46,338 nucleotides of DNA from Tannerella forsythia. GTDB lineage: Bacteria > Bacteroidota > Bacteroidia > Bacteroidales > Tannerellaceae. Positions within the stretch are counted from its first letter, which is position 1. Each line of letters opens with the position of its first letter. Where the stretch lies: contig NZ_RQYN01000019.1 in NCBI RefSeq assembly GCF_003860135.1, forward strand, positions 1-46,338, written 5' to 3'. Positions 8,830 through 24,918 of the stretch are shown here, piece by piece. The notes under the pieces were generated by a model, which did not search any database, was not told the DNA's origin, and saw only the letters and a list, made by a program, of their open reading frames with translations. Position numbers and translations under genes: made by a program.

Positions 8830-8857
8830 CTGTTTTCCGAAAGAGCAAAAGCCATGC

Positions 8858-8865
8858 CAAAGGTA
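8858..8865 (-). promoter_or_regulatory. -7 element for the TPR gene
   Basis: The minus strand reads TACCTTTG, 29 nt upstream of the ATG at 8829. It supports that start over the longer frame. Confidence 0.65.
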
Positions 8866-8886
8866 TGAAAATTTTCCTGAAATTCG

Positions 8887-8894
8887 TATCTTTG
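8887..8894 (+). promoter_or_regulatory. -7 element for lepA
   Basis: TATCTTTG, 24 nt upstream of the lepA ATG. It lies back to back with the TPR promoter. Confidence 0.65.
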
Positions 8895-8918
8895 CCGGCA
8901 AAACAGAAATTTGACACA

Positions 8919-11256: not shown

Positions 11257-12663
11257 TCAGCGGTTCTCAAGGCTTTCCGTTTCTTTCCGGTAGTATTCGT
11301 AGCGGTTCAGCACATCGGAGACATAATTATACGTCTCCGTACCGCGCAGATAACCGAATTTGCAGACCGAATCGGTATAATACTGCGCTTCGGCTTTGAG
11401 GCGGATAAACTCGGCCACGTTGTCGTTCCACACGTTCGGGTTACGTCCGTACTTCTGCGCCAGTCTTTGCGCATCGTAAATATGTCCGATTCCGGCATTG
11501 TAAGAAGCCAGCGTCAGTTTGATACGTTCGAGCGAGTCGAGCGAGACAAATCCCTTTCCAAAACGGCGCAGGCATTCAATCGCAGCCTGTACGTTCTTTT
11601 CCGGATTTTGCATCTCTCCTGCGTCAAATCCCAGCCCGCGCGCCGTAGCCGGCATGATGCCCATCAGTCCCTCGGCACCGCTCCAAGCGACAACCTGAGG
11701 CTGAAAACGAGACTCCTGATACGCAATGGATGCCAGCAAACGCCAGTCCCACCCCAATCGGCCGGCATAACGCTTGAACAGATCGTCATACGGAGAGATT
11801 TGTCCGTTTGCTATCTTCGGCATACCGATCAGCGTCGGTGAAACTTTCGAAAGTTCAAAGTAACGTTTGATAGCCGACTGATAAGAGCTTTTCCCGGTTA
11901 TGTTCGACGCCCACGCATGAATAGCCTTAGCCAGTTTCGGACAGTTCTTGCGCACCGCCCACGAAGAGCGCTGTTTAAAACTGATTGCCAGATTGATATT
12001 AATATTTCGGTAATACGTCCGATTCAGTCTGGCCACATCGTCTTCACACACCGTGTAATCGATCTGGCCTTTTGCCACCATCTCGATCAAATCTTCCGAC
12101 GAGATCGTGTCTTTATCGATATGGACAATGCGGATTCCTCCTCCCAACTCGCTGTTGAGGTTCTCGAGTCGCTCTTGATAACGTCGATACGGTTTTATAC
12201 AGACCTCTTTCCCGATGAGTTGCGTCACATCGGTCAACACCGTATCTCCACGTCCGGCGCGCTGGACGATAACCAGATTCGATTGCCGTTCATAGCCGCA
12301 AAAAAGCATCTGCTCTTTTAACTTATTGTCGATGGTAATCGGATAAGCCGCAACATCGGCCTCGCCCGATTGCAACATCTCCATCAGGCGGGTAATGTTT
12401 TCGGCCACCTTCATATTCAAACGCAATCCGTTCTGGCGGGCGAAGTCGGCGATGAGATCGTACTCATACCCCATCGCCTGCATCTTATATTGGAAATACG
12501 ACGTAGAACTGTTGAGCGTCACAGCCGTTATCTCCCCCTTCTCTTTGATGGAAGGCCAATCGGATGAAGTCTCTTCACTCTGAGAACGGTTCCCTCCGCT
12601 GTAGCATCCGCACAGCAACAGAAGCAAAGACACAAGCGGAAAGACAAATGTATTTCTATACAT
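11257..12663 (-). CDS. mltF: MltF-type membrane-bound lytic murein transglycosylase
   Basis: 468 residues. A lipoprotein signal has Cys20. An SBP_bac_3 (periplasmic amino-acid-binding type) domain spans about 40-265, followed by a goose-type SLT domain from about 285. The catalytic Glu is E317 in AYQESRFQPQ, followed by GAEGLMGIMPATARGLG and later SYNAGIGHI, which are SLT family signatures. This two-domain order is that of MltF, which cleaves the glycan strand of peptidoglycan to 1,6-anhydro-muropeptides and can be allosterically controlled by the binding-protein domain. It should be anchored in the periplasm or outer membrane. It is 30 bp downstream of the rRNA methyltransferase gene on the same strand, so co-transcription is possible. 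Confidence 0.92.
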   Translation of the reverse strand: MYRNTFVFPLVSLLLLLCGCYSGGNRSQSEETSSDWPSIKEKGEITAVTLNSSTSYFQYKMQAMGYEYDLIADFARQNGLRLNMKVAENITRLMEMLQSGEADVAAYPITIDNKLKEQMLFCGYERQSNLVIVQRAGRGDTVLTDVTQLIGKEVCIKPYRRYQERLENLNSELGGGIRIVHIDKDTISSEDLIEMVAKGQIDYTVCEDDVARLNRTYYRNININLAISFKQRSSWAVRKNCPKLAKAIHAWASNITGKSSYQSAIKRYFELSKVSPTLIGMPKIANGQISPYDDLFKRYAGRLGWDWRLLASIAYQESRFQPQVVAWSGAEGLMGIMPATARGLGFDAGEMQNPEKNVQAAIECLRRFGKGFVSLDSLERIKLTLASYNAGIGHIYDAQRLAQKYGRNPNVWNDNVAEFIRLKAEAQYYTDSVCKFGYLRGTETYNYVSDVLNRYEYYRKETESLENR

Positions 12664-12693
12664 TATTTTATAGTATGGTATTACATCGTAACT

Positions 12694-14115
12694 CTATCGG
12701 TCATTCTTTTTACGAAGCAAGGCTACGTTTTCGACATGATGCGTATGCGGAAACATATCGACCGGCTGAATTTTTACCACCTCATAACGGATACTCATCC
12801 GCTCAATGTCTCGTGCCTGCGTAGCCGGATTACAACTCACATAGACGATTTTTTCGGGCGATGCCGCCAGAATCGTATCAATCACGTCGTTGTGCATACC
12901 CATACGTGGGGGGTCGGTGATGATTACGTCCGGCCGGCCATGTTCTTCGATAAAAGCCGTCGTGAGCAAATCTTTCATATCTCCGGCAAAGAACGCGACA
13001 TTGTCGATGCCGTTCAGTTGCGCGTTTACTTTCGCATCCTCGATTGCCTCGGGCACATATTCGATACCTACTACCTTGCGGGCTTTCCGGGCAACGAAGT
13101 TGGCGATTGTCCCGGTACCGGTGTAAAGATCGTAAACCGTTTCGTTGCCGCTCAATCCGGCGAACTCGCGCGTTACATCATACAGCCGGTAAGCCTGCTC
13201 GCTGTTTGTTTGATAGAATGATTTGGGTCCCACCTTAAACTGCAAATCCTCCATCCGCTCAATCAAATGATCTTTCCCACGATATAACTCGATATCCAAG
13301 TCGGTCAGCGTATCGTTCCGTTTCCCGTTGATGACATACATCAGCGACGTAATTTCCGGTATTTGCTCCAGCAGATGCTCCAACAAGGCTTCGCGTAGCG
13401 CCTTATCTTCTCTGAAGAAAGCCAGAACGACCATCAACTCACCGGTCGAGGCGGTACGTATCATCAACGTGCGCACAAAGCCTTCCTGATTTTTCAAGTC
13501 GAAGAAAGAATAACCCTCGTGCGTCAGACAGAAATTTTTCACGCATAGCCGAATCCGGTTCGACACATCGTCCTGCAACCAGCAACGCCGGATATCGAGC
13601 ACCTTATCGAACATGCCCGGAATATGGAACCCCAGCGCGTTCATCTCCGTATATTCGATACCGGAGGCCACTTCCTGTTCGGTCAGCCAGCGCTTGTTCG
13701 AAAATGTAAACTCCAGCTTGTTACGGTAATGCATCGTGCGCTCCGAACCGAGAATCGGCAACACCTCTCCTATCGGTACCTTGCCGATTCGCGTCAGCGT
13801 ATCCGTAACTTGTTTTTGCTTATAGCGCAACTGTTCTTCGTAAGGCAGATGCTGCCATTTGCAGCCTCCGCATACCCCGAAATGTTCGCAGAAAGGAGTT
13901 GCCCGCTTCTCACTGTACTTGTGGAATGCGATAACATTCCCTTCGGCATAATGACTTCGTTTGCGAGTCAAACGGATATCTACCACATCACCCGGTGCCG
14001 CCCACGGCACAAAAACAACCATTTCACTCACTTTGGCAATCGCTTTGCCTTCGGCCGCAACATCCGTGATTTCTACCTCTTCCAGTATCGGGAAGGGTTT
14101 CTTTTTTCGTGTCAA
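12694..14115 (-). CDS. rlmD: 23S rRNA (uracil-5-)-methyltransferase RlmD/RumA family
   Basis: 473 residues, family length. An N-terminal TRAM domain (about 10-65) is followed by a [4Fe-4S] cysteine cluster with C76, C82 and C85 in CEHFGVCGGCKWQ. Next come the central beta domain and a Rossmann SAM-binding domain (VYDLYTGTGTIANFVA and IITDPPRMGMH). The catalytic nucleophile Cys is C428 in VSCNPATQARD. These enzymes methylate C5 of a specific uridine in 23S rRNA or tRNA. In Bacteroidetes the name RlmD is used, but the exact target base is not provable from sequence. A TATATTTG element lies 30 nt upstream. Confidence 0.93.
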   Translation of the reverse strand: MTRKKKPFPILEEVEITDVAAEGKAIAKVSEMVVFVPWAAPGDVVDIRLTRKRSHYAEGNVIAFHKYSEKRATPFCEHFGVCGGCKWQHLPYEEQLRYKQKQVTDTLTRIGKVPIGEVLPILGSERTMHYRNKLEFTFSNKRWLTEQEVASGIEYTEMNALGFHIPGMFDKVLDIRRCWLQDDVSNRIRLCVKNFCLTHEGYSFFDLKNQEGFVRTLMIRTASTGELMVVLAFFREDKALREALLEHLLEQIPEITSLMYVINGKRNDTLTDLDIELYRGKDHLIERMEDLQFKVGPKSFYQTNSEQAYRLYDVTREFAGLSGNETVYDLYTGTGTIANFVARKARKVVGIEYVPEAIEDAKVNAQLNGIDNVAFFAGDMKDLLTTAFIEEHGRPDVIITDPPRMGMHNDVIDTILAASPEKIVYVSCNPATQARDIERMSIRYEVVKIQPVDMFPHTHHVENVALLRKKNDR

Positions 14116-14144
14116 ATCTGTGAATAATTAAAAAATTCGCCACG

Positions 14145-14152
14145 CAAATATA
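14145..14152 (-). promoter_or_regulatory. -7 element for rlmD
   Basis: The minus strand reads TATATTTG, matching TAnnTTTG, 30 nt before the ATG at 14115. Confidence 0.6.
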
Positions 14153-14239
14153 AAAACTAACTTCCGGATAGAATCAAAAATAGTTTTAAAACATAAAAAT
14201 ACCTTCGCGGTTTATTTGGAAATCAGCGATCAAAATAGC

Positions 14240-14289: not shown

Positions 14290-17010
14290 ATGGAAATAAA
14301 GAGAGTTTACACCTTTGGTAATGGAAAAGCCGAAGGGCGGGCAGATATGCGGAATCTGCTGGGTGGAAAAGGAGCCAACTTGGCAGAAATGAACTTGATT
14401 GGAGTGCCTGTTCCTCCGGGATTTACCATCACAACCGATGTCTGCAACGAGTATTATAAAATCGGAAAAGAAAAAGTGGTAGAGTTACTGCAAGACGAAG
14501 TGAAAAATGCGGTAGCCTACGTCGAATCATTGATGCACTCCAAGTTCGGAGACGTAGAGAACCCTCTGCTCGTTTCGGTACGTTCGGGAGCCCGCGCTTC
14601 GATGCCCGGGATGATGGATACCATCCTGAATCTGGGACTCAACGACGAAGTGGTTGAAGGATTGGCGCGTAAGACGAACAATCCCCGCTTTGCATGGGAC
14701 TCGTATCGCCGCTTTGTCCAGATGTACGGAGACGTAGTACTGGGAATGAAGCCTGAAAATAAAGAGGATATTGACCCGTTCGAAGAAATTATCGAAGAAG
14801 TAAAGAAAGCCAAGGGCGTCACGCTCGATAACGAACTCGGAGTGGAAGACTTGAAGGAGCTTGTCACCAAATTCAAGGCTGCCGTAAAGAAACAAACCGG
14901 TCGCGATTTCCCGACTTCAGCCTATGAGCAGTTGTGGGGAGCCATTTGCTCCGTTTTCAACTCGTGGATGAACGAACGCGCCATTTTGTATCGTAAGATG
15001 GAAGGCATCCCGGCCGAATGGGGAACAGCAGTCAATGTACAGGCAATGGTTTTCGGTAACATGGGTGAAACCTCGGCAACCGGTGTTTGCTTCTCGCGCG
15101 ACGCAGGCAATGGCGAAGATTTGTTCAACGGCGAATACCTGATCAATGCGCAAGGCGAAGACGTGGTCGCCGGCATTCGCACCCCGCAACAGATCACCAA
15201 GATCGGTTCGCAACGCTGGGCGGAACTGGCCGGTGTGCCTGAAGCGCTCAGAGCAGCGGAGTACCCTTCGATGGAAGAAGCCATGCCCGAAATATATAAA
15301 GAACTGGACGCGATTCAGACGAAGCTCGAAGATCATTACCGCGACATGCAGGATATGGAATTTACCGTACAGGATGGCAAGCTCTGGTTCCTGCAAACCC
15401 GTAACGGAAAACGTACCGGCGCGGCGATGGTTAAGATTGCCATGGACCTGCTACGTCAAGGCATGATCGATGAAAAAACGGCTTTGAAACGCATCGATGC
15501 GAACAAACTGGATGAGCTGCTTCACCCCGTATTCGATAAAGAAGCGTTGAAAAAGGCCAAAGTGCTGACACGCGGACTTCCCGCCTCGCCGGGAGCAGCT
15601 ACGGGACAGATCGTATTCTTCGCAGATGATGCGGCGAAATGGTACGACGAAGGGCATAAAATCGTGCTTGTACGTATTGAAACATCGCCCGAAGATTTAG
15701 CGGGTATGGCCGTAGCCGAAGGTATCCTGACCGCTCGCGGAGGAATGACCTCGCATGCCGCTGTCGTAGCCCGTGGCATGGGAAAATGCTGCGTATCGGG
15801 TGCAGGAGCATTGAATATCGATTATAAAAATCGCACAGTCGAAATAGACGGAACAGTACTCAAGGAAGGCGATTATATCTCCATCAACGGTACGACGGGC
15901 GAAGTGTATAAAGATGAAGTGCGTACGCAAGCCGCCGAACTGCTCGACGACTTCGCAGAACTCATGAAGCTGGCGGACAAATATACTCACCTCAAAGTAC
16001 GTACAAACGCCGACACACCGCACGACGCGGAAGTGGCACGCGGATTCGGAGCCGTAGGTATCGGATTGTGTCGTACGGAACACATGTTCTTCGAAGGCGA
16101 TAAAATCAAAGCCATGCGCGAAATGATTCTCTCCGAGAACGCCGAAGGACGAAAGAAAGCGTTGGCGAAAATCCTGCCCTATCAGCAGGCCGACTTCAAA
16201 GGAATCTTCAAAGCCATGGCCGGCTATCCCGTCACGGTTCGTCTGCTCGATCCTCCGTTGCACGAATTTGTACCTCACGATCCGAAAGGTCAAAAGGAAC
16301 TGGCCGATGCAATGGGCGTAAGCGTAGAATACATCCGGCAACGGGTAGATGCTCTGCACGAACAGAATCCGATGCTCGGACATCGCGGGTGCCGCTTGGG
16401 GAATACGTATCCCGAAATTACACAGATGCAGACACGCGCGATCCTCGGAGCTGCACTCGAACTGAAAAAAGAAGGCGTATCGACTTATCCCGAAATTATG
16501 GTGCCGCTCACCGGTATCGTATACGAATTCAAAGAGCAGGAAGAGGTGATTCGTGCCGAAGCAGAAGCGCTTTTTGCCGAACAAGGTGATAAAATCGACT
16601 TTAAGGTCGGTACGATGATCGAAGTGCCGCGTGCAGCTTTGACAGCAAATAAGATTGCTTCGAAGGCTGAATTCTTCTCGTTCGGAACGAATGACTTGAC
16701 TCAAATGACGTTTGGCTATTCACGCGACGATATCGCCTCCTTCCTTCCGATTTATCTGGAAAAGAAAATTCTGAAGGTAGACCCATTCCAAGTGCTTGAT
16801 CAGAATGGTGTCGGACAGTTGATCCGTATGGCCACGGAAAAAGGTCGAGCCGTACGTCCGGATTTGAAGTGCGGTATCTGCGGTGAACACGGAGGAGAGC
16901 CATCGTCGGTAAAATTCTGTCATCAGGTAGGATTAGACTACGTCAGCTGTTCGCCTTTCCGGGTGCCGATTGCACGCATTGCGGCCGCGCAAGCTGCGAT
17001 TGAAGCGTAA
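14290..17010 (+). CDS. ppdK: Pyruvate, phosphate dikinase
   Basis: 906 residues, typical of PPDK (about 870-900). The N-terminal ATP-grasp nucleotide-binding domain begins with GGKGANLAEMN. The swivelling phosphohistidine domain has H489 in GGMTSHAAVVARGMGKCC. The C-terminal PEP/pyruvate TIM barrel ends in GICGEHGGEPSSVKFC with catalytic Cys864. The enzyme interconverts ATP, phosphate and pyruvate with AMP, PPi and PEP. In anaerobic Bacteroidales it is thought to act in PPi-linked glycolysis or gluconeogenesis at the PEP node. It is monocistronic: it has its own promoter upstream and a strong terminator 34 nt after the stop codon. Confidence 0.98.
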   Translation: MEIKRVYTFGNGKAEGRADMRNLLGGKGANLAEMNLIGVPVPPGFTITTDVCNEYYKIGKEKVVELLQDEVKNAVAYVESLMHSKFGDVENPLLVSVRSGARASMPGMMDTILNLGLNDEVVEGLARKTNNPRFAWDSYRRFVQMYGDVVLGMKPENKEDIDPFEEIIEEVKKAKGVTLDNELGVEDLKELVTKFKAAVKKQTGRDFPTSAYEQLWGAICSVFNSWMNERAILYRKMEGIPAEWGTAVNVQAMVFGNMGETSATGVCFSRDAGNGEDLFNGEYLINAQGEDVVAGIRTPQQITKIGSQRWAELAGVPEALRAAEYPSMEEAMPEIYKELDAIQTKLEDHYRDMQDMEFTVQDGKLWFLQTRNGKRTGAAMVKIAMDLLRQGMIDEKTALKRIDANKLDELLHPVFDKEALKKAKVLTRGLPASPGAATGQIVFFADDAAKWYDEGHKIVLVRIETSPEDLAGMAVAEGILTARGGMTSHAAVVARGMGKCCVSGAGALNIDYKNRTVEIDGTVLKEGDYISINGTTGEVYKDEVRTQAAELLDDFAELMKLADKYTHLKVRTNADTPHDAEVARGFGAVGIGLCRTEHMFFEGDKIKAMREMILSENAEGRKKALAKILPYQQADFKGIFKAMAGYPVTVRLLDPPLHEFVPHDPKGQKELADAMGVSVEYIRQRVDALHEQNPMLGHRGCRLGNTYPEITQMQTRAILGAALELKKEGVSTYPEIMVPLTGIVYEFKEQEEVIRAEAEALFAEQGDKIDFKVGTMIEVPRAALTANKIASKAEFFSFGTNDLTQMTFGYSRDDIASFLPIYLEKKILKVDPFQVLDQNGVGQLIRMATEKGRAVRPDLKCGICGEHGGEPSSVKFCHQVGLDYVSCSPFRVPIARIAAAQAAIEA

Positions 17011-17044
17011 TACGCGCTTAGGCCATCTTCTGAAAAAAGAAAAG

Positions 17045-17087
17045 GAGTGTGTCAGACAAACATCGATTGCTGACATGCTCTTTTTTT
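17045..17087 (+). terminator. Rho-independent terminator of ppdK
   Basis: An 11-bp stem (17045-17055 with 17070-17080, two G-U pairs) around a 14-nt loop is followed by seven T. Confidence 0.88.
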
Positions 17088-17119
17088 ATATTTTCTTTGG
17101 ATAGATATTAAAAAAAGTC

Positions 17120-17127
17120 TACTTTTG
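17120..17127 (+). promoter_or_regulatory. Promoter of the LytTR-FHA unit
   Basis: TACTTTTG (-7) with TTTG at 17096-17099 (-33), spacer 20 nt. It lies 36 nt upstream of the LytTR ATG and just after the ppdK terminator, so the signalling cluster starts its own transcription unit. Confidence 0.7.
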
Positions 17128-17163
17128 CTCCTCAATAATGACTATACCTGCTAAATAAAAAGG

Positions 17164-17553
17164 ATGGATCGGTATTTGATAATAAAAACGAGAGATGAAT
17201 TATTGCGCATACGCATCAGCAACATACTCTATCTCGAAGCAGATCGGAATTACACGAAACTGCTATTGACGGAGGGCGTTCAGTTTACATTTGCTATCAA
17301 TATCGGAAAAATCGAAGGTATGCTGGACACACAAGCTTCAGAGTCCAGATCACAACTCATTCGGGTAGGCAAAAGCTACATCATCAACAAAAATTACATT
17401 TTGCAAATTAATTTACCGAAACAAAAATTACTATTGCTCGTTCCGGGCTCGAAACCTCGCGAACTGGTTGTACCCAGAGAGCCGCTAAAAGCCCTGAAGG
17501 AGAGCTTGGAGCAAGATGCACTAATTACAACAAAAAACAAAGATTCACAATGA
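17164..17553 (+). CDS. Stand-alone LytTR DNA-binding protein
   Basis: 129 residues, almost entirely one LytTR domain: IRISNILYLEADRNYTKLLL near 17-36, then SQLIRVGKSYIINKNYILQI near 64-83, the usual LytTR core. No receiver, PAS or membrane segment is fused to it, so any input must come through a partner protein. Its stop overlaps the ATG of the FHA gene (ATGA), which points to coupled translation and a shared role. LytTR proteins bind direct repeats in promoters. The likely job is transcription control tied to the downstream phospho-signalling proteins, which is inference from position. Confidence 0.9.
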   Translation: MDRYLIIKTRDELLRIRISNILYLEADRNYTKLLLTEGVQFTFAINIGKIEGMLDTQASESRSQLIRVGKSYIINKNYILQINLPKQKLLLLVPGSKPRELVVPREPLKALKESLEQDALITTKNKDSQ

Positions 17554-18203
17554 TCATCCGGATCGGTAAAGCAAACGACAATGACTTTGTAGTAGATGAT
17601 GTACACGTCAGCCGGTATCATGCACGGTTGATACGCGATGAAAACGGCCATCTTTTTATTGAAGATACAGATTCCGCAAATGGCACGTATGTCAATGGGG
17701 ACCGTGTAATCAAGAAAAAAGTGGTGCCCTCTGATGTTATTATGCTCGGAGATCATTATGTTCTGGATATAATGGCCGTTTTGAAATCAGATAACGATTA
17801 CAGTGAAGAATTCGCCGCTTTAAAGCCGGTCTATGAAAGATATATCAAAGAAAAAATACGGATTCAGTCTACGAACCAGTTCAAGACACGTATCTTCCAA
17901 TCGCTGCCATTTGCTTTTGTCGGGGTGGCGGGACTCATTATCGGAGTCCTTGGGAAGCATCACCAAGGCATCTTTATCGGCAGTTTGACACTGGCGATAT
18001 GTGCACCCACTTTAGGTATTTACCTTGGAGCCAGACAGTCCGCTAAAATCCCGGCTTTGATACAACGCCTCTCCAATCAATTCAAAATCGATTACGTCTG
18101 TCCCAAATGCGGAACATTTCTCGGCGAAATCCCTTGGGAATCTTTGGCCAACAAAAAGAGATGCTCTGTCGGCTCATGTCGTGCCAAATGGGTGAAAAAA
18201 TAG
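17550..18203 (+). CDS. FHA-domain membrane protein with C-terminal zinc ribbon
   Basis: 217 residues. The FHA domain (about 1-80) has phosphothreonine-binding signatures SRYHA (21-25) and NGTYVNG (44-50). A linker is followed by two hydrophobic segments (about 113-128 and 135-153, LPFAFVGVAGLIIGVL and FIGSLTLAICAPTLGIYLG), consistent with a membrane hairpin. The C-terminus carries a zinc-ribbon-like set, CPKCG and then CSVGSC. The FHA part should be cytoplasmic and read phosphothreonine on a partner, plausibly a substrate of the Ser/Thr kinase 1.7 kb downstream. It is translationally coupled to the LytTR gene by an ATGA overlap. The combination FHA - two TM - zinc ribbon does not match a named protein I know. 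Confidence 0.88.
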   Translation: MIIRIGKANDNDFVVDDVHVSRYHARLIRDENGHLFIEDTDSANGTYVNGDRVIKKKVVPSDVIMLGDHYVLDIMAVLKSDNDYSEEFAALKPVYERYIKEKIRIQSTNQFKTRIFQSLPFAFVGVAGLIIGVLGKHHQGIFIGSLTLAICAPTLGIYLGARQSAKIPALIQRLSNQFKIDYVCPKCGTFLGEIPWESLANKKRCSVGSCRAKWVKK

Positions 18204-18332
18204 AATGATATATACCAAACAATGGTTTTGTACAATAATCTCCTTGCTTCGTACGTTAATGGTTAAGAATTAAATCACATAAGATTTTAATATGTATCTT
18301 TGTGACAGAATAACCAAAAAAACAGTAAAGAG
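18204..18332. other. Short intergenic region with promoter
   Basis: 129 bp, AT-rich. It carries the TATCTTTG element at 18295-18302; no hairpin terminator is obvious. Confidence 0.5.
18295..18302 (+). promoter_or_regulatory. -7 element of acidic peptide/FHA/PP2C unit
   Basis: TATCTTTG, 30 nt upstream of the 73-residue acidic ORF. This supports that small ORF as a real first gene of the unit. Confidence 0.65.
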
Positions 18333-18554
18333 ATGAACAATGAACATACATTCGTAACGATAGACAACGACGCCGATGAAGTCTTGTTGATCGACGTCAA
18401 TGAAACACCCGCGAGTGATTTCGTAATGGTGGATGAAGTGTTGGACGACACGGATTTCATCACGCTTTCCGACGATGTGGAAATCGCTTCTGAAGAAGAC
18501 ATTATCGACATTACTTCGGGCATGGATGACGCAGACGTTTCAATCATTTTATGA
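18333..18554 (+). CDS. 73-residue highly acidic protein, possible FHA ligand
   Basis: 73 residues with 16 Asp and 7 Glu and no Lys or Arg, so the predicted pI is very low. There is no signal peptide, membrane segment or Cys. It is rich in Thr/Ser beside acidic residues, including T44-L-S-D47 (the pTxxD pattern favoured by many FHA domains), T40-D-F-I43 and T61-S-G. It has its own promoter element 30 nt upstream, and its stop overlaps the ATG of the zinc-ribbon/FHA gene (ATGA). The reading frame and context support a real gene. By analogy with phospho-ligands of FHA modules such as GarA's N-terminal Thr motif, it could be a kinase substrate and adaptor; this is inference. No family recognised. 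Confidence 0.78.
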   Translation: MNNEHTFVTIDNDADEVLLIDVNETPASDFVMVDEVLDDTDFITLSDDVEIASEEDIIDITSGMDDADVSIIL

Positions 18555-19057
18555 TTCCGGTAAAATGCCCGCATTGTAAAGTCGGTTTAAAAGTTGATGA
18601 AACAAAAATTCCCGAAGGAATAGCTTCATTTAAATGCCCGAAATGCCGGCATGATGTTCCGGTTTCTTATTTAAAAAACGAACAGCCGACCGATTCCGAA
18701 ACTGTTTTAATCCGGCCGATCCGAAAAGGATGCGGCCGGTTAATTGTGGTCGCCAATCCGGATACTCCGGAGCAAACATTTCCTTTGCGTGAAGGAATCT
18801 TTATCGTAGGACGCAAAGCGTCTGTGTCGGAAGCGACGATCCGTATCGAAACCGGCGATAAAGAAATGAGCCGCAATCACATGCGGATAGAAATAAAGAA
18901 AGACAATCGGGGAAACTACATCCACATGCTCTCGGATTACCAGAGCAAGAATCATACGCAATATAACGGCAGATCTTTAGATAAAGGCGAAGTGGTAGTG
19001 CTGAAAAATAACGACGAAATCAAAATCGGACACACTCACGTTCGCTTTAAGGAGTAA
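18551..19057 (+). CDS. Zinc-ribbon plus FHA-domain protein
   Basis: 168 residues. The N-terminal zinc ribbon has C6-x2-C9 and C29-x2-C32 (VKCPHCKVGL and FKCPKCRHDV), of the kind seen at the N-terminus of many regulatory proteins. A linker (about 40-62) leads to an FHA domain: GIFIVGRKASVSEATIRI, then MSRNHMRIEI and NHTQYNGRSLDKGE. It is soluble, with no membrane segment. It starts inside the stop of the acidic peptide gene and is followed 17 nt later by the PP2C phosphatase gene, so all three should be co-expressed. Predicted role: phosphothreonine reader; the partner is unknown but may be the acidic peptide or the kinase itself. Confidence 0.9.
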   Translation: MIPVKCPHCKVGLKVDETKIPEGIASFKCPKCRHDVPVSYLKNEQPTDSETVLIRPIRKGCGRLIVVANPDTPEQTFPLREGIFIVGRKASVSEATIRIETGDKEMSRNHMRIEIKKDNRGNYIHMLSDYQSKNHTQYNGRSLDKGEVVVLKNNDEIKIGHTHVRFKE

Positions 19058-19074
19058 CTTATTGTTTTAGTGCC

Positions 19075-19848
19075 ATGAATATAACACTCGGAATGCCATA
19101 CGCTATCTGTGAAAGAGGAAAAAGACCGAACAACGAAGATGCGATCTTTCCCTCCTCCTCTCAAACGATAGAGCGCTCACAGAGACTCTTTGTCGTATGC
19201 GATGGTGTTGGCGGTGCGGAAAAAGGCGAGATCGCCAGTTCGCTGGCATGTGAATCTTTTCAGATTTTCTTTTCCACTTTTATGGAAGAAGATGCCACCG
19301 ACGATCTGATTCGCAAAGCTGTCCGATATACCGAAGTACGTTTTGACGAATACATCTCGACGCATCCCGAAGCAGAAGGAATGGCCACTACACTCACGAT
19401 GCTCTACTTTGGAAACAAGGGGGTTACGGCCGCACATATCGGTGACAGTCGGATTTATCAGTTCCGAGACGGAAAGCCGATCTTTCGGACGGAAGACCAT
19501 TCGCTGGTTAATTTTTGGGTAAAGACAGGGAAAATCAATCAAGAAGAAGCCTTGCATCATCCTCAAAAGAACATCATCACTCGGGCAATCACAGGCTCAG
19601 CCAATCCGACCGAAGCAGACATTGCCTTCCTGACGGATATTCAACCCAACGATTGCTTTCTCATGTGTACGGACGGAGTAACCGACTGCTTGTCGGACAA
19701 GGTACTATCCTCCCTTTTCACCAGACCTTACATGTCTGAAAAAATAAAAGATACCCTTGTGGAAACGTGCTATGAAAAAGCCCACGATAATTACTCTTTC
19801 TATCTTTTGCCTGTCTTAAAAGTGCAAAATTCATCGAGTTACAACTAA
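19075..19848 (+). CDS. PP2C-family Ser/Thr protein phosphatase
   Basis: 257 residues, the size of compact bacterial PP2C (Stp/PrpC type) enzymes. Metal-binding and catalytic motifs are in order: RPNNED (D22), VVCDGVGG (D43), GMATTLTML, AAHIGDSRIY, and MCTDGVTDCL (D200). It is cytoplasmic with no signal or membrane segment. It hydrolyses phosphoserine/phosphothreonine with Mn/Mg and should oppose the kinase encoded next. It is third in the acidic peptide-FHA-PP2C unit. The kinase gene begins 73 nt downstream behind its own promoter-like element. Confidence 0.95.
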   Translation: MNITLGMPYAICERGKRPNNEDAIFPSSSQTIERSQRLFVVCDGVGGAEKGEIASSLACESFQIFFSTFMEEDATDDLIRKAVRYTEVRFDEYISTHPEAEGMATTLTMLYFGNKGVTAAHIGDSRIYQFRDGKPIFRTEDHSLVNFWVKTGKINQEEALHHPQKNIITRAITGSANPTEADIAFLTDIQPNDCFLMCTDGVTDCLSDKVLSSLFTRPYMSEKIKDTLVETCYEKAHDNYSFYLLPVLKVQNSSSYN

Positions 19849-19885
19849 TTTACTCTACCTTTTTTATTCTTTCGTTAAAAAAATG

Positions 19886-19893
19886 TATCTTTG
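19886..19893 (+). promoter_or_regulatory. -7 element of the kinase unit
   Basis: TATCTTTG, 28 nt upstream of the kinase ATG. Confidence 0.6.
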
Positions 19894-19921
19894 TTGCGAA
19901 ATCTGATTACTGTAAGTAATT

Positions 19922-21793
19922 ATGAATTTGCCGGACGGATATTGTTTGCAAAATGGCAAGTATTGTCTAACGAGAGTCATCGGCCAGGGAGGATTCGGAA
20001 TCACCTATTTGGGCGAGTGGAACACTGAGGTCAAAGGTGAACTCGGAGCAGTAGAAACGACCGTGCCCATTTGCATTAAAGAATACTTCTTTAAAGACTA
20101 TTGCTTTAGAGATGAGACAACATTCGAAGTCAAAGTGCACTCCGGAACCGGCAAAATCCTTTTTGATAAGTTCAAAGAGCGACAAATCGAAGAAGCCAAA
20201 ATTCTTTCCGAAGTACATCATCCGTATATCGTCAATGTGTTGGAAGTGTTCGAAGAGAACAACACAGCCTACATCGCGATGGAACATATATCGGGTTGTT
20301 CATTGAAATCCATGTTGAGCGAGCAGACGGTATTGCCGGAATCGAAAGTGCTCAGGTACGTCGCACAGATCGGGAAGGCGCTGGAGTTTGTACATCAGAA
20401 AAACATTCTGCATCTCGATATCAAGCCCAACAATATTTTAATCGACAAGAATGATAATGCCCGATTGATCGATTTTGGTGTCAGTAAGCGCTACGATCTC
20501 GAAGAACAGGAGGCATGCACAACGACGCTTACACTATCAAAAGGATTTGCATCGATTGAACAGTACGACGATGAGGGTACGGTAAATTTCTCTCCTTGTC
20601 CCGATGTTTATTCGTTGGGGGCAACCATGTATAATCTACTGACCGGCGTAATCCCGGTCGAATCGATTTTAAGAGCCACAAAGCCTTTGGTTCACCCGTC
20701 AGAACTGAATAAACGAATCTCTCCGAAAACGGAAGCTGTCGTGCTGAAAGCGATGCAGGTCAATCCGAAAGATCGCTATCAGTCGATAAAAGAAATGATG
20801 GATGCTTTGGATATCCCACCATCGATCGAAAGCAAAGAAAACATAAGCTTTCCGAAAAAAAAGGAGCACGAAGCGAAACAATCTGTCGATGAGAATGAAA
20901 GCACACAGTTGATCACAACTTCTCGCAAGTCTGGATCAGTTGACAATGAGGAAACTCTATTTATACCTCTGCAAACGAAGCAATCCAAACAACGGCGTAC
21001 AAAAAGTAAACGACGGATTTTATTGCCCTTGTTAATCTTTGCGTTCGCAGGTGTAGGTTGGGCTGTGTCATACCTGTTCAGTTGGAGCGATAAAAGCACA
21101 ACATTTATCAACAACAAGTTAGTCGCTGACGCCTCGATACAACAAGGCGAACCGATCATTCCGGTCGATCTCCAACCTCAGACGGAGACTCCCTTAACCG
21201 AACCATCTCCTTCCGAAGTGACGAATGAAATCCATAAAGAGGAGCGAACGGAGAAAAAAGAAGGAAACGAAACCGCTCCGGCAAAGAAAGAAGAGAAATC
21301 GGAGAAAACGACGACAAGCAAAGAATCGGATAAGAAAGCCTCTGAAGAAGCGTCGAAAGCCAAAAAGGCGGAAGAAGAGACCGAACGAATGAACGCAAAT
21401 TATGCGGCATTGTTGGCGTCCGGAAAAACAAAAATGGATCAAGGTCAATACATTGAGGCAAAAGCAGACTTTACAAAAGCCAAAGAAATAAAGGTTACCG
21501 AAGACGTTGTTCGTTTATCGTTAGCTTGTGAGGAGAAAATAGAAGAAAAAAATATTGCGGCTCGGATTGCATTGTATGAATCGGGAATGACTTTTGGCAA
21601 CTACACGATCGTCCGGAAGAAACAAAACGGACGTTATGGGGCAATTGACGCCAAAGGAATCGAACGTATCCAATGTGTTTACTTGAGCGTGGGACGGTCT
21701 GAGAGCGGACGGGCTTTTGAGCGCGAAGACCATCTGTACGATATTTATAACTCAAACGGAGTATTAGTCGGGAGAGGACTTACGACCTACTAA
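19922..21793 (+). CDS. Transmembrane eukaryotic-like Ser/Thr kinase
   Basis: 623 residues. The kinase domain (about 10-295) has glycine loop GQGGFGITYLGE (21-32), catalytic Lys K53 in ICIKEYF, and catalytic loop HLDIKPNN (164-171, D166). HLD replaces the usual HRD, so it is a non-RD kinase. DFG is at 184-186, and an activation segment contains TTTLTLSKGFASIEQY. A Lys/Ser-rich juxtamembrane stretch precedes one TM segment (about 366-387). The extracytoplasmic part begins with a Lys/Glu-rich, probably coiled region (about 430-490), then a short TPR-like helical pair. It ends in a WG-repeat-like segment NYTIVRKKQNGRYGAIDAKG. The periplasmic part may sense an envelope signal. It is 16 nt upstream of an outer-membrane protein gene. 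Confidence 0.94.
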   Translation: MNLPDGYCLQNGKYCLTRVIGQGGFGITYLGEWNTEVKGELGAVETTVPICIKEYFFKDYCFRDETTFEVKVHSGTGKILFDKFKERQIEEAKILSEVHHPYIVNVLEVFEENNTAYIAMEHISGCSLKSMLSEQTVLPESKVLRYVAQIGKALEFVHQKNILHLDIKPNNILIDKNDNARLIDFGVSKRYDLEEQEACTTTLTLSKGFASIEQYDDEGTVNFSPCPDVYSLGATMYNLLTGVIPVESILRATKPLVHPSELNKRISPKTEAVVLKAMQVNPKDRYQSIKEMMDALDIPPSIESKENISFPKKKEHEAKQSVDENESTQLITTSRKSGSVDNEETLFIPLQTKQSKQRRTKSKRRILLPLLIFAFAGVGWAVSYLFSWSDKSTTFINNKLVADASIQQGEPIIPVDLQPQTETPLTEPSPSEVTNEIHKEERTEKKEGNETAPAKKEEKSEKTTTSKESDKKASEEASKAKKAEEETERMNANYAALLASGKTKMDQGQYIEAKADFTKAKEIKVTEDVVRLSLACEEKIEEKNIAARIALYESGMTFGNYTIVRKKQNGRYGAIDAKGIERIQCVYLSVGRSESGRAFEREDHLYDIYNSNGVLVGRGLTTY

Positions 21794-21809
21794 ATAATAA
21801 AGAAGATAG

Positions 21810-22748
21810 ATGAAAATATGGATGTGGATTATATTCGGATGTTTATTGCTTCCCTCCTACGCCGGAGCACAGCGACAGGCCGAATATAACCGTAGAGGAG
21901 ACGAAGCGATGAAACGCAACGATTATCGGGACGCGAAAATGTGGTACGAAGAAGGCGTTTCATATTGTGACCAGTACAGTATCCATCAACTGACCGAAAT
22001 ATGGCTGAAAGATGAGACGATGCATGTCTCGATGCGTACGGTGATGAGCAAATGCTTGAACTGCTTGAATGAATATGCAACGGAACGAGACACATCGGCC
22101 ATTCAGAAGTTAATCCTCTATTACACCCAAGGAATCGGGACCACTGAAAACCGGACGACTGCCGGCTATTGGCGCAAACAGCTCGAAGATATACGCCGTT
22201 CAAACGCGCTTCCCCCTACCCTTCCGAAGAAACCCAAAGAACCTATGCGTTTCTTTGCCGGATATGATTTTTCTTTGTTGGCTCCATACGGTATTCGGGT
22301 CGGTGGAATAAATAATCTGATCGGCTGGTATGTAAAACTGCATTCCAACCTTTCTTTTCAAGCACACAACGAAGAATGTCGTGTCGATGGAAATCGATTC
22401 GTGATCGAGAACATGCAGCAATATTACGGTCCGACAGGACGAACGAAAGCAAATGTGATGATGGGATCGGCCGGTATTATGCTAAAGACCGTAGAGAATT
22501 TATACACGTCTTTGGGAGCAGGGTATTGGCAACGAAACGTATTGCGTGAATACGAAATCGTAAACGATGAAGGCATCAGGCAGTCTACCGGATGGGCAAA
22601 AGATCGCGACGCCTCGAAAAAAGGTCTTAAAATAGATTTGGATGCCACCTATTTCTTAAAAAACAAGCGCTTCTATGTTTCGGGCGGATGCAGTGCTTTT
22701 AACTTCAAGTACTTCTATCCGAATGCGGGAGTCGGCATGGTTTTCTAA
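21810..22748 (+). CDS. Exported protein with TPR-like region and outer-membrane barrel
   Basis: 312 residues. A signal peptide ends near YAGAQ (residue 21). Residues about 22-125 look TPR-like (RRGDEAMKRNDYRDAKMWYE). From about 145 to the end, amphipathic beta strands such as FFAGYDFSLLAPYGIRVGG, VMMGSAGIMLKT and LYTSLGAGYW end with Phe (GVGMVF), typical of small outer-membrane beta barrels of Bacteroidetes. It lies 16 nt after the kinase gene and 16 nt before the kelch lipoprotein gene, so it belongs to the kinase operon. It could be a surface output of the pathway. Family not recognised by name. Confidence 0.85.
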   Translation: MKIWMWIIFGCLLLPSYAGAQRQAEYNRRGDEAMKRNDYRDAKMWYEEGVSYCDQYSIHQLTEIWLKDETMHVSMRTVMSKCLNCLNEYATERDTSAIQKLILYYTQGIGTTENRTTAGYWRKQLEDIRRSNALPPTLPKKPKEPMRFFAGYDFSLLAPYGIRVGGINNLIGWYVKLHSNLSFQAHNEECRVDGNRFVIENMQQYYGPTGRTKANVMMGSAGIMLKTVENLYTSLGAGYWQRNVLREYEIVNDEGIRQSTGWAKDRDASKKGLKIDLDATYFLKNKRFYVSGGCSAFNFKYFYPNAGVGMVF

Positions 22749-22764
22749 AAAAAATGAACAAACA

Positions 22765-24918
22765 ATGAGACAAGCTAAATACTACATCTTTCTGATCGTT
22801 CTTTCTTGCGGATTTATTTACGGATGTATCGACGATCCGAAGGTAGAACCGGGGATACAAAACGCAAAAATACCCCAATTGGGAACAACTGTAAAAATAG
22901 AACGCACAGCTTCCTCCATCACATTGACCGCCTCGGTCGAGAAAGCCAACGGCGCGGCGGTGGAAGAGCGCGGATTATGCTGGTCGAAAAAAAACAATCC
23001 TACCGTTCGCCCCGACAGTGCTCAAGCTTTCGGGAAAGGACTGGGTGAATTTAACGGCACGATCGAAAATTTATCCAGCAATACAACATATTATATCCGG
23101 CCTTATGCCAAAAACCTGAAAGGGATCGCCTATGGGGAAGAAAGTAAGGTCTCGACTAATACGGGATTAGGATCGGTTCGTACGTTTGTGATCATAGACA
23201 GTGTGCGTGCTAGAACGGCACTATCCGGAGGAAAAATAGAACTGCACGGCGAAGGGGCTGTTCTTGCTCGTGGAGTGTATTATTCGACATCGTCATTGAT
23301 GCTTCCGAAAGATTCGGTGCTAAGTACGATGGATACCGATTCGTTCATCTGCCGGATCAGCGGTCTGAGAACATCTACGAAATATTACGTTCAGGCATTT
23401 GTAAAAAACCGATTTGGCTATTATGTCATGTCCGGACCTCTTCGAACATTCCTGACAGGAGACGGTTTACCGACGGTTTCACCTGTCACCATTATAAAAA
23501 GAGGCTATACGACAGCTGCCTTCTCTGCTACCGTGATGAAGGAAGGGGATGCTCCCGTTATTCAGCGCGGTTTCTGCTGGAGCACGAAGAAAAATCCGAC
23601 CCTTGAAAATGCGTCGTACGATGACAAATGCGGTGTGGGGGCCGGCACTTTCAAGGTAGAATGCGAAAATCTGATCTCGCGACAAAAATATTACGTGCGA
23701 GCTTTTGCCCGGAATAAAGATTTCGGTATTTCATACAGTGAACAAGATTCGTTCATTACGAAGAGTAATATCCCCACTGTCACTACGGCAGAGTTAAAAA
23801 ACATCGAGAAAGGAGCGGTTACAGTTGGCGGAAAGATCGAAGAAGCGGGACAAAGTGCCGTGAAAGCGTGTGGAATCTGCTGGTCTGCGACCGTCGCGAA
23901 TCCTACCCTGACGAATGCCGAAGTATTAGAGATTGAGCCGAATGCCGAAGGCATTTTCAGCAGTCAAATTACCGGCCTGAAAGGAGGAGTAACGTATTAT
24001 TTCCGAGCTTATGCAACGAATAATGAAGGAACCTCATACGGAGAGATCAAAGTCAGAACGATGTCCAAAGTATTCAAGGGAAATTTAAAAACGTTTCAAG
24101 GTGCTCCTCGTATTCAGAATTCTCCGGCTTACTTCTCCATCCGAGATTGGGGATATATTCTCGGTGGAGATATTGGCCCTCAATATACGGCTGAACTTCA
24201 TTACTATAATGCCACTACGGACGAATGGAGAGCGATGCTGTCACATCCGGAAGGCCCGGTCAAATGGCAGACGGCTGTCGTGCACGACAGATCGGCCTTT
24301 ATTTTCGGGGGAATGGCTGCCGATCGTAAAGCAAGAAACGATTTTTATCAATATAACTCGTGGAGTAATACCTGGTATGACAGATCGACGACCATAAGAC
24401 CGGATTCCTCTTATCTCTCGGTCGGCTTTGCTTTGAACGACAGCATCTGTTACGTAGGCGGTCGCAAAGACACAGTCAAAAACGAGGTATGGATGTACGA
24501 GGTCTCGGCCAATACGTGGAAACGGCAGCCCGATTTCCCCGTCCAACAATACGGAGGCATCGCCGTAACGATAGGGAATACAGCTTATGTCGGACTCGGT
24601 AAAAACGGAAGCGGTGTCTTCAATAAAGGATTGTGGAAAACAACGAATGCCGCTTTATGGACACGAGAAACAACTTGTACGATCTCGACCGAGGGTGTTT
24701 TGGCCGGTGTGGCACATAATAATCGAATCTATATGATTGATGAAGCATACTATATCATCGAATATAATCCGTCTACGATGCTCTGGACAAAGAAATCGCA
24801 ACTACCTCCCCAAGCAAGAGGCATTCATTGTATGTTTGTCATGAACGACCTGATCTACATCGGTCTTTCTCCGACGTCTACGACCATGATTTCTTATGAT
24901 CCGACATGGGATAATTAA
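22765..24918 (+). CDS. Lipoprotein with beta-sandwich repeats and kelch-like domain
   Basis: 717 residues from the ATG at 22765, which gives a lipoprotein signal with lipobox IYGC; the open frame extends upstream into the preceding gene. Residues about 35-450 hold four or five Fn3-like repeats with recurring motifs ERGLCWSKKNNPTV, QRGFCWSTKKNPTLENA and ACGICWSATVANPTL, each ending in YYxRAxAxN. The C-terminal third is kelch-like: GYILGGDIGPQYTAEL, SAFIFGGMAADRKA, ICYVGGRKDTVKNEVWMYE. Such proteins in Bacteroidetes are surface adhesin or glycan-binding lipoproteins. It is the last gene of the kinase operon; a weak GTTTAAAC hairpin with a T run at about 24946-24960 may end transcription. Confidence 0.9.
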   Translation: MRQAKYYIFLIVLSCGFIYGCIDDPKVEPGIQNAKIPQLGTTVKIERTASSITLTASVEKANGAAVEERGLCWSKKNNPTVRPDSAQAFGKGLGEFNGTIENLSSNTTYYIRPYAKNLKGIAYGEESKVSTNTGLGSVRTFVIIDSVRARTALSGGKIELHGEGAVLARGVYYSTSSLMLPKDSVLSTMDTDSFICRISGLRTSTKYYVQAFVKNRFGYYVMSGPLRTFLTGDGLPTVSPVTIIKRGYTTAAFSATVMKEGDAPVIQRGFCWSTKKNPTLENASYDDKCGVGAGTFKVECENLISRQKYYVRAFARNKDFGISYSEQDSFITKSNIPTVTTAELKNIEKGAVTVGGKIEEAGQSAVKACGICWSATVANPTLTNAEVLEIEPNAEGIFSSQITGLKGGVTYYFRAYATNNEGTSYGEIKVRTMSKVFKGNLKTFQGAPRIQNSPAYFSIRDWGYILGGDIGPQYTAELHYYNATTDEWRAMLSHPEGPVKWQTAVVHDRSAFIFGGMAADRKARNDFYQYNSWSNTWYDRSTTIRPDSSYLSVGFALNDSICYVGGRKDTVKNEVWMYEVSANTWKRQPDFPVQQYGGIAVTIGNTAYVGLGKNGSGVFNKGLWKTTNAALWTRETTCTISTEGVLAGVAHNNRIYMIDEAYYIIEYNPSTMLWTKKSQLPPQARGIHCMFVMNDLIYIGLSPTSTTMISYDPTWDN

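Follow-up and report, generated by a model that had tools for sequence, protein, structure and literature searches.

A conserved eight-gene kinase, phosphatase and FHA module with a predicted LytTR operator in Tannerella and Parabacteroides

ORGANIZATION AND CONSERVATION OF THE MODULE

Eight genes, all on the + strand, lie between 17164 and 24918 of the window, by which we mean the whole 46,338-nucleotide stretch of the Tannerella forsythia contig. The first-pass annotation had described here a cluster of a kinase, a PP2C, two FHA proteins with zinc ribbons, an acidic peptide, a LytTR protein, a barrel and a kelch lipoprotein, and all eight are found at these positions. The genes and their associated elements are as follows.

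17120..17127, + strand: -7 box TACTTTTG of the LytTR-FHA1 transcription unit, read from the sequence
17164..17553, + strand: LytTR, a DNA-binding protein of 129 aa (PF04397, 44.3 bits, cut-off 22.6)
17550..18203, + strand: FHA1, with an N-terminal FHA domain (PF00498, 63.2 bits), two hydrophobic segments and a C-terminal zinc ribbon
18226..18255, + strand: predicted LytTR operator, direct repeat TTTTGTACA-12 bp-CTTCGTACG, from a repeat scan
18295..18302, + strand: -7 box TATCTTTG of the acidic-peptide operon, 65 bp from the G of the first half-site
18333..18554, + strand: acidic peptide of 73 aa, with the motifs FVT-[IL]-D and DFIT-[LM] (76 sequences aligned)
18551..19057, + strand: FHA2, with an N-terminal zinc ribbon, a variable linker and a C-terminal FHA domain (PF00498, 45.1 bits)
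18701..18703, + strand: codon of Thr51 in the FHA2 linker, a predicted phosphorylation site (T in 74/74 aligned FHA2 sequences)
19075..19848, + strand: PP2C-type Ser/Thr phosphatase (PF13672, 60.5 bits)
19886..19893, + strand: -7 box TATCTTTG of the kinase gene (TAnnTTTG in 71/73 sequences)
19922..21793, + strand: Hanks-type kinase (PF00069, 136.7 bits)
20903..20956, + strand: juxtamembrane ESTQLI (T328) and EETLFI (T345), predicted phospho-ligand motifs, the second from a motif search
21810..22748, + strand: outer-membrane protein with a signal peptide, a helical Sel1/TPR-like domain and an 8-strand-type barrel
22765..24918, + strand: fn3/kelch lipoprotein (Pfam kelch and fn3 matches above cut-off)

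The LytTR gene overlaps that of FHA1 by 4 bases. The kinase, barrel and lipoprotein genes are separated by just 16 bases each, so that the term 'kinase operon', under which the two envelope genes had originally been placed, is correct. The mechanically called reading frame of the lipoprotein begins at 22675, within the barrel gene; we read its start as the ATG at 22765, with the lipobox at Cys21. Three -7 boxes of the form TAnnTTTG are present in the module, before LytTR, before the acidic peptide and before the kinase.

How well is the module conserved? We retrieved 80 loci of Tannerella or Parabacteroides type, 61 of which have enough contig for gene order to be counted. All seven large genes are found in the same order and on the same strand in 58 of the 61; the acidic ORF was counted separately, and precedes FHA2 in all 75 loci in which FHA2 was detected. 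The order breaks in three loci. In L095 and L111 unrelated genes take over after the PP2C or FHA1, and in L101 they occupy the positions of the barrel and lipoprotein. LytTR and FHA1 were both detected in 80/80 loci and are adjacent in 79, the sole exception (L086) having a second LytTR copy that was picked by score. The matches include records named Parabacteroides distasonis (L084, L108 and L115). At E 1e-30 an FHA1 match is found in 106 of the 123 genomes of the family (57 of the 61 good genomes), with none in the other 17 (4 of the good ones). In a genome from another family (G280) the same genes are split over two loci on different contigs, one (L038) carrying LytTR-FHA1 and the other (L176) acidic peptide-FHA2-PP2C-kinase-TPR protein-lipoprotein. 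The search for the same gene order that the first-pass annotation had proposed is thus answered for Tannerella and Parabacteroides, with the two pieces in G280. The eight genes are one conserved unit, kept well beyond close strains.

PROMOTERS AND THE PREDICTED OPERATOR

The LytTR protein matches PF04397 over residues 12-115 and no further Pfam family at E 0.1, and the Pfam search revealed no receiver domain. It is well conserved, with a mean pairwise identity of 0.75 (55 rows). The genome holds four LytTR matches, of which that of the module is the only short one, of a size expected for lack of a receiver; the other three lie in open frames of 250-312 aa. TAnnTTTG is present 5′ of LytTR in 77 of 78 sequences, compared with a mean of 4.8 and a maximum of 14 in mononucleotide shuffles; the shuffles for the kinase box gave a mean of 7.7 and a maximum of 15.

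In 75 of 76 sequences a LytTR-type direct repeat of 9-12-9 bp stands 5′ of the acidic-peptide operon. The best lag is 21, giving a mean of 5.25 matches out of 9, against 2.55 (sd 0.48) at other lags. From the geometry of the class and its position we predict that this repeat is the LytTR operator. The -7 box lies 64-66 bp from the repeat in 60 of the 75 sequences and 76-77 bp, one helical turn beyond, in another 14, with no box in one. On reading L176 of G280 we find the geometry of T. forsythia again, with TTTCATACA and TTTTG 21 bp apart 5′ of the acidic peptide and a distance of 65 bp to TAGCTTTG; the first half-site has A where the other sequences have G.

The predicted operator is unique in the genomes tested. 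It is the only exact match in its own genome, where there is no second operator-like site with 1-2 mismatches, and likewise the only exact match in each of 7 Parabacteroides-group genomes; no other operator-like place rises above threshold on either strand of 2.6 Mb of locus DNA, and no copy of the repeat does so upstream of LytTR's own operon. The idea of a LytTR output towards surface proteins therefore survives in part. One LytTR-type operator alone was found, and it stands before the module's own acidic-peptide operon and not before unrelated surface genes, so that the output would be primarily the module. A separate -7 box precedes the kinase gene, which makes it uncertain whether the operator governs that gene.

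Might the repeat be bound by another regulator, perhaps another LytTR protein of the genome, leaving that of the module to act on other promoters? There are three further LytTR matches to choose from, we matched no known LytTR site to the half-site TTTTGTACA, and the second half-site varies, differing between the 27 Tannerella-type and 44 Parabacteroides-type sequences. Yet the repeat length, the 12-bp gap and the place upstream of a promoter obey the LytTR rule as set out in the available part of PMC6193735, and the module LytTR and the repeat co-occur across the family and are both kept in G280, on different contigs. We consider binding by another regulator unlikely.

In the LytTR Regulatory Systems (LRS; HdrRM, BrsRM), as described in the same portion of that source, a LytTR protein and a membrane inhibitor go together with repeats of 9 bp spaced by 12 bp (PMC6193735). 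The module resembles them in its receiver-less LytTR made with a small, putative membrane protein, in having repeats 5′ of a promoter and in what would be local feedback (PMC6193735). It differs in that the putative membrane partner bears an FHA domain and a zinc ribbon, and that a kinase and a phosphatase are built in. Moreover the repeat precedes a second operon and not LytTR, whereas the LRS have an 11-13-bp gap at their own promoter. With a repeat before the acidic-peptide operon and none before LytTR, the module would thus work like an LRS, but we do not file it as one.

KINASE, PHOSPHATASE, FHA PROTEINS AND ACIDIC PEPTIDE

The kinase comprises a catalytic domain, a juxtamembrane segment, a membrane helix and a C-terminal TPR/WG-like tail that is predicted to be periplasmic, the TPR/WG character and the topology having been assigned by reading. 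K53, D166 and D184 are kept in 66/66 kinases, and the sequence HLD makes this a non-RD kinase. Assignment as a PASTA kinase (PknB/Stk1) was rejected, with 189.6 bits against a cut-off of 450 and no PASTA match in Pfam. In the PP2C the residues of the acidic motifs are conserved in 74-75 of 75 sequences.

The FHA residues that we take to be those binding pThr are intact in both FHA proteins. In FHA1 S21, R22 and H24 are kept in 80/80 sequences and N44 in 79/80, and in FHA2 G87, R88, S107, R108 and H110 are kept in 74/74 and N134 in 73/74. The hydrophobic segments of FHA1 were read by eye as membrane-spanning, and its zinc-ribbon cysteines C184, C187, C205 and C210 are invariant in 17 aligned relatives; the ribbon of FHA2 scored 29.8 bits against Zn_ribbon_4 (cut-off 30.3). 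FHA proteins beyond these two are present in most relatives sampled, so the set of readers need not be closed.

Candidate ligands are found in the kinase, FHA2 and the acidic peptide. Among the related sequences in which the threonine motifs were first noticed and then tested, the pattern [DE][DE].?T[VITLAMQ][VLIFM] occurs in the juxtamembrane segments of 45 of 66 kinases (shuffles mean 1.5, maximum 7), with no match to this expression in the other 21 and the serine version in 1/66. The T. forsythia kinase fits at T345, ESTQLI being a near match by eye. The mean identity of region 297-490 is just 0.19. The motif resembles that of Thr51 in FHA2, which lies in a fast-evolving linker and is preceded by E or D in 64 of 74 sequences, with its other neighbours variable. 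In the acidic peptide F7 and V8 are present in 76/76 sequences, position 9 is T in 61 and S in 13, and position 44 is T in 66 and S in 3. The threonine contexts are unlike, with a hydrophobic residue at +3 in FHA2 and mostly N, S, G or D there at the first site of the peptide.

The peptide is small and very acidic, it is encoded by the first gene after the predicted operator, and it has no Pfam or NCBIfam match at E 0.1. All this would suit a role not as a phospho-ligand but in titrating LytTR, or some other basic protein, as a mimic of DNA or a stoichiometric inhibitor. But the strict F-V-T and D-F-I-T motifs exceed what charge alone needs, and in the more distant clusters discussed below a larger acidic protein lies between two FHA genes for 10 of the 14 X proteins listed, with LytTR mostly absent nearby. 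Such a titrating role seems to us distinctly improbable.

ENVELOPE PROTEINS

The barrel protein had no meaningful family match in the Pfam and NCBIfam searches. Its model has an 8-strand OmpX/OmpA-like barrel fold, and as modelled the protein is OmpX-like with a helical Sel1/TPR-like domain. The lipoproteins have a common mature N-terminus C-[IVLM]-[DE]-D-P. A single regular expression, which misplaces the Cys in several, finds a lipobox-like Cys in 53 of 59; a hydrophobic residue comes first, D or E predominates at the second and third positions past the Cys, and 45 of the 53 have at least two D/E among the second to fifth. The available part of PMC5080379 describes the Bacteroidetes surface export signal as acidic residues just after the lipid Cys, with a polar or positive residue before them.

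Are these two proteins outputs or inputs? They could be regulated outputs that remodel the surface, with the kinase sensing some other cue, either intracellular or via its tail. The two genes stand at the end of the kinase unit and evolve the fastest of the whole genes (mean pairwise identities 0.46 for the barrel and 0.36 for the lipoprotein), as is often seen for surface proteins, and the acidic N-terminus of the lipoprotein is partly like the export signals in that portion of PMC5080379. However, envelope genes still lie beside the kinase in the split locus L176 of G280, and the genes after a kinase in L171 and L172 likewise encode a secreted protein of TPR type and a lipoprotein with other domains (from Pfam for L171 only), an arrangement in keeping with a sensory arm. 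In addition, of the distances compared, those of the barrel follow the kinase tail most closely (correlation 0.69, and 0.62 for the kinase domain), a weak hint of contact. A sensory arm may fit the place of the pair by the kinase as well as or better than outputs do, and we regard outputs as possible but rather unlikely.

A PROPOSED CIRCUIT

Our best explanation is a closed phosphothreonine-to-transcription circuit spanning the envelope, which we think somewhat probable. The sequences themselves show the gene order, catalytic and pThr-binding residues that are intact, a predicted operator with helically phased spacing that is unique in the genomes tested, the threonine motifs and the barrel model. 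The phosphorylations, the binding events, the way in which control runs and the envelope pair's part in sensing are inferred, as follows. Outside control of the inner-membrane kinase, with its periplasmic TPR/WG tail, would come from the Sel1/TPR-OmpX-like protein and the fn3/kelch lipoprotein. When active the kinase would phosphorylate its own juxtamembrane threonine motifs, upon which the FHA proteins could dock, and next Thr51 of the FHA2 linker, as a GarA/OdhI-like switch, along with Thr9 and Thr44 of the acidic peptide. FHA1, at the inner membrane and made with LytTR, would read the phosphothreonines and so hold or free LytTR. LytTR would bind the 9-12-9 repeat and activate the acidic-peptide operon, providing more peptide, FHA2 and PP2C and, by read-through, also kinase and envelope proteins, and the PP2C would reset the system. 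We put forward tentatively, as quite possible if short of probable, that LytTR is gated by phosphothreonine: an inner-membrane FHA protein, and not a histidine kinase or a plain inhibitor, would hold or free it, and an OmpX-like/Sel1 protein together with a surface lipoprotein would drive the kinase from across the envelope.

The predicted parts make a complete set, from writer and eraser through two readers and ligands to a regulator with one operator, and the bacteria are common ones of the gut and mouth. With one operator only, a single reporter would suffice to test the circuit directly. If the proposal is true, the envelope pair would be a new route by which an outside signal reaches a bacterial Ser/Thr kinase, and the whole a trans-envelope Ser/Thr signalling pathway that the Tannerellaceae have kept, with one operator dedicated to it.

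RELATION TO KNOWN SYSTEMS

Sets of kinase, PP2C and FHA protein are usual in the T6SS, as the PpkA/PppA/Fha modules, and the present genes might be such a module working post-translationally. These three components are common to both; the T. forsythia module adds LytTR and a conserved operator. The initial view that the window has no type VI genes agrees with a genome search for the sheath gene VipB, which found none (E. coli control positive); the Bacteroidetes-type TssC model (PF17541) gave no match in any control genome. The TagH model gave 27.7 bits against a cut-off of 120.25, and we find a T6SS function extremely unlikely. An anti-phage kinase-phosphatase module is also very unlikely. 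A prophage module of this kind is described in the available part of PMC11341870, and the kinase matches 34 PADLOC profiles (the best 25 of the 34 listed) and the PP2C one. These look like generic domain matches, however, the other six proteins match none, and the module is present in most genomes of the family and not patchy.

FHA2 is like the GarA/OdhI switch in having intact pThr-binding residues and a conserved Thr51 before the FHA domain, but unlike OdhI it carries a zinc ribbon; the OdhI equivalog was rejected for both FHA2 (19.2 bits) and FHA1 (37.6 bits), the cut-off being 200. To our knowledge the PknG-OdhI/GarA pathway does not include LytTR. In Actinobacteria the autophosphorylated segment of PknG recruits the FHA substrate OdhI, and a TPR domain is proposed to link signal and kinase, according to the portion of PMC8546545 available; unlike in the module, the substrate controls 2-oxoglutarate dehydrogenase (PMC8546545). 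The ArnA-ArnB proteins of Sulfolobus, with ArnC/ArnD, are similar in combining an N-terminal zinc finger and FHA domain with Ser/Thr kinases and control of expression (PMC6509490, in part). They are archaeal, with a vWA partner, and the part of that source available mentions no LytTR, PP2C neighbour or envelope proteins.

The first-pass annotation knew of no pathway with this combination of genes. The literature search gave no account of the locus among the matches listed, and with parts of known kinds the circuit seems undescribed. Clusters of FHA-acidic protein-FHA-PP2C-kinase occur elsewhere in Bacteroidia, uniting an FHA protein with a C-terminal zinc ribbon, an FHA2-type protein, a PP2C and a kinase, and by reading 10 of 19 include a caspase-like gene; the module is therefore a branch of a wider theme and not an isolated oddity. 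The acidic protein X of these clusters is usually between the FHA genes and is large, with a membrane segment and an EAF-type domain, where the module has its 73-aa peptide, and among the matches listed for the acidic-peptide profile there is none to an X protein. LytTR is mostly absent from the clusters and no comparable barrel was noticed. The threonine motif is found there in just 5 of 14 X proteins and 2 of 12 FHA2 linkers.

Conservation and organization of the module

The first-pass annotation had proposed an eight-gene phosphothreonine signalling cluster in this region, and all eight genes were confirmed in place. The features needed here are:

17164..24918, + strand: the module, in the order LytTR, FHA1, acidic peptide, FHA2, PP2C, kinase, barrel, kelch lipoprotein
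18226..18255: predicted LytTR operator, a 9-12-9-bp direct repeat before the acidic-peptide operon

How well is this arrangement preserved? A scan with FHA1, which is 97% identical to that of Tannerella sp. S17M_Sa_42 and 94% to that of T. forsythia ATCC 43037, found 110 relatives, and the 80 best were retained as loci. These are titled Tannerella, Parabacteroides, Tannerellaceae, Porphyromonadaceae or Bacteroidia, and counts of conservation among such related sequences are not independent of one another. The contig was too short in 19 of the 80. Among the 61 with room for the whole cluster all eight genes are found in order on one strand in 47, and the seven large genes in 11 more; the order is broken in three (L095, L101 and L111). 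FHA2 was detected in 75 loci, and each of these has an acidic ORF, identified by reading, between FHA1 and FHA2. PPDK lies upstream in 22 of 61 loci with >2.5 kb of upstream sequence (a set different from the 61 used for gene order), so the flanks change around a preserved cluster. Within the Tannerellaceae FHA1 is matched at E 1e-30 in 106 of 123 genomes, and in 57 of the 61 good ones. Of 295 genomes drawn from the order, 31 match at E 1e-5, and those at E < 1e-70 are the genome of the window and four others, three of the same family together with G280, a genome of another family.

In L086 a second LytTR and FHA1-like pair (7872-9341) is immediately upstream of the main pair, and in L054 two tandem lipoprotein genes (15302-19728) replace one. 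L070 has a gene for an 880-aa lipoprotein-like and, by reading, glycosidase-like protein between FHA2 and PP2C (11593-14235), which may be a real insertion or a misassembly.

Gene spacing and the −7 boxes suggest three transcription units, LytTR–FHA1, acidic peptide–FHA2–PP2C and kinase–barrel–lipoprotein, with read-through possible. The box TAnnTTTG precedes LytTR in 77 of 78 sequences, the acidic peptide in 74 of 76 and the kinase in 71 of 73, compared with mononucleotide-shuffle means of 4.8, 6.6 and 7.7, respectively.

A predicted operator unique to the module in the genomes searched

A TTTYGTACA-type half-site and a second half-site are found in the gap between FHA1 and the acidic peptide in 75 of 76 sequences, the window included, the motif having been discovered and counted on the same data, as were the threonine motifs described below. 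In all 75 the G of the second half-site falls exactly 21 bases after that of the first. Only the second half-site is independent, the first having served as the anchor. L126 was excluded from the count, having no anchor at the coordinates used and a short FHA1 ORF. A period of 21 was the best among repeat lags of 12-55, and the 9-12-9 layout agrees with the rule given for LytTR sites of LytTR Regulatory Systems (LRS; PMC6193735). Three loci (L096, L110 and L125) have three half-sites at the 21-bp period instead of two.

After three loci with a third repeat were re-anchored, the distance from operator to −7 box is 64-66 bp in 60 of 75 sequences and 76-77 bp in 14, and no box was detected in one (L107). 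The longer spacing, seen for example in L075, L081, L087, L093 and L119, adds about one helical turn, a change that binding by an activator would allow. No −33 element was seen to be conserved, which also suits activation.

The operator was sought with two weight matrices, each with its threshold at the 5th percentile of its own sites, in 2.6 Mb comprising the loci and the window on both strands. No copy was found elsewhere above threshold, including before LytTR; the single match scored as outside (L129) is on a cut contig and falls in the FHA1–acidic peptide gap itself, behind FHA1. A second operator before the kinase was considered and rejected, the conserved block there being the PP2C coding end in Parabacteroides (by reading). 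In the genome of the window there is one exact match to the pattern and none with one or two mismatches. Six matches have three mismatches, against one for a reversed-pattern control; four of these are inside ORFs of >500 aa and, unlike the true site, none of the six has a TAnnTTTG box 45-90 bp beyond, so that we take them as chance. All seven Parabacteroides-group genomes searched have one exact match each, with a single three-mismatch match in addition in G710; the reversed control gave one match in G105 and one in G722.

The most telling relative is G280. Its LytTR–FHA1 pair is on one contig (L038), and another (L176) carries in order acidic peptide, FHA2, PP2C, kinase, a TPR/barrel-like protein and a lipoprotein, identified by reading the sequences (for the last two, just their beginnings). 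Before the acidic peptide stands TTTCATACA...TTTTG, in the 21-bp phase and 65 bp from TAGCTTTG, with one anchor base different (by reading). In L111 the LytTR–FHA1 pair is likewise present and the rest of the module is not beside it. From these two cases the module seems to comprise two natural pieces that part between FHA1 and the acidic peptide.

Proposed phosphothreonine signalling within the module

The catalytic residues of the kinase and PP2C are conserved, as are the residues of both FHA domains that we take to contact phosphothreonine; FHA1 differs from many FHA domains in having K in place of the R of the GR motif. The FHA2 linker varies apart from Thr51 (74/74); the residue before this threonine is E or D in 64 of the 74, and the one after it is I, V or L in 55. 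Residues 297-490 of the kinase, the juxtamembrane and following segment, are poorly conserved, with an identity of 0.19, yet 45 of 66 kinases have within them [DE][DE].?T and then two residues, mostly hydrophobic (shuffle mean 1.5, maximum 7); the serine version is found in one of 66. The acidic peptide is built on a repeated hydrophobic-V-x-hydrophobic-D unit, with T or S at position 9 in 74 of 76 and at position 44 in 69 of 76. Docking through an autophosphorylated kinase segment has a precedent in PknG–OdhI (PMC8546545).

Our best explanation is a membrane kinase/PP2C/FHA relay that would gate LytTR. It is strongest on the predicted operator, which is unique in the genomes searched, on the conserved gene order and on the invariant threonine. 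It is weakest on the direction in which FHA1 would affect LytTR and on the role of the barrel and lipoprotein, as input or output. A sequence search of the barrel against solved structures gave just three weak matches, to Sel1-repeat proteins, and correlations of distance between genes were weak and depended on the tree too much to establish contact.

Membership of a type VI secretion system was rejected on the absence of VipB from the genome of the window; a TssC search was uninformative for that genome, as no control genome matched. A defence module was also rejected, PADLOC matches being limited to kinase profiles and one for PP2C. No account of the locus was recognised in the literature searched, in which subscription journals were sparsely covered and one query gave the best 10 of 3,005 records, and the parts examined of a survey of conflict systems (eLife 2020, PMC7159879) make no mention of such a cluster.

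Searches of the genome of the window, which is of Tannerella type, covered 3.3 Mb in 226 contigs. It has just two FHA matches, both within the cluster. There are two kinase-domain and two PP2C_2 matches, the second of each being on contig 145. There, at about 7041-8752 (L004, L178), a kinase-like protein with zinc-ribbon cysteines lies near a PP2C, a pair that to us resembles the TerY-P triad. LytTR is matched four times; the open frame of the window copy is 132 aa long, and those of the other three measure 250-312 aa. The set is not limited to two FHA proteins in all relatives: 18 related genomes sampled have from 1 to 8 FHA matches each, most commonly 3. Parabacteroides-group genomes include a third zinc ribbon–FHA protein away from the cluster (L175, 4649-5182; L177, 5064-5597), near efflux-type genes by reading.

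A wider family of clusters

Nineteen other loci were annotated, 10 from a search of the order and 9 from one of the class, leaving out the fetched L048-L050. Twelve of the 19 combine FHA1, a large acidic protein X, FHA2, PP2C and kinase, with X throughout and the FHA2 of L171 and L172 identified by reading. LytTR adjoins or is near FHA1 in four (L038, L040, L044 and L166), with a weak fifth in L041. L166 reads LytTR, a 189-aa lipoprotein-like ORF, FHA1, X, FHA2, two WG/TPR-type proteins, PP2C and kinase. As in the module of the window, the last genes of L171 and L172 encode a kinase, a secreted TPR-type protein and a lipoprotein (Pfam on L171 only). Protein X has a membrane segment, a SFSEAF...ARxExG...GGxFxWxG...YNTYY domain and acidic repeats. 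The threonine motif is not a general feature of these distant clusters, being present in five of 14 X proteins and in two of the 12 FHA2 linkers listed.

A caspase-like gene was read in 10 of the 19 loci, and the one checked is Peptidase_C14 (60.2 bits). Such FHA/PP2C clusters are found in other families of the class (L042, L043, L045, L167, L170-L173 and others), most of them also with X. Homology between X and the acidic peptide was looked for and none was demonstrated. On these comparisons the Tannerellaceae cluster looks like a derived branch, with a small acidic peptide, LytTR and its own predicted operator, a barrel and an fn3/kelch lipoprotein.
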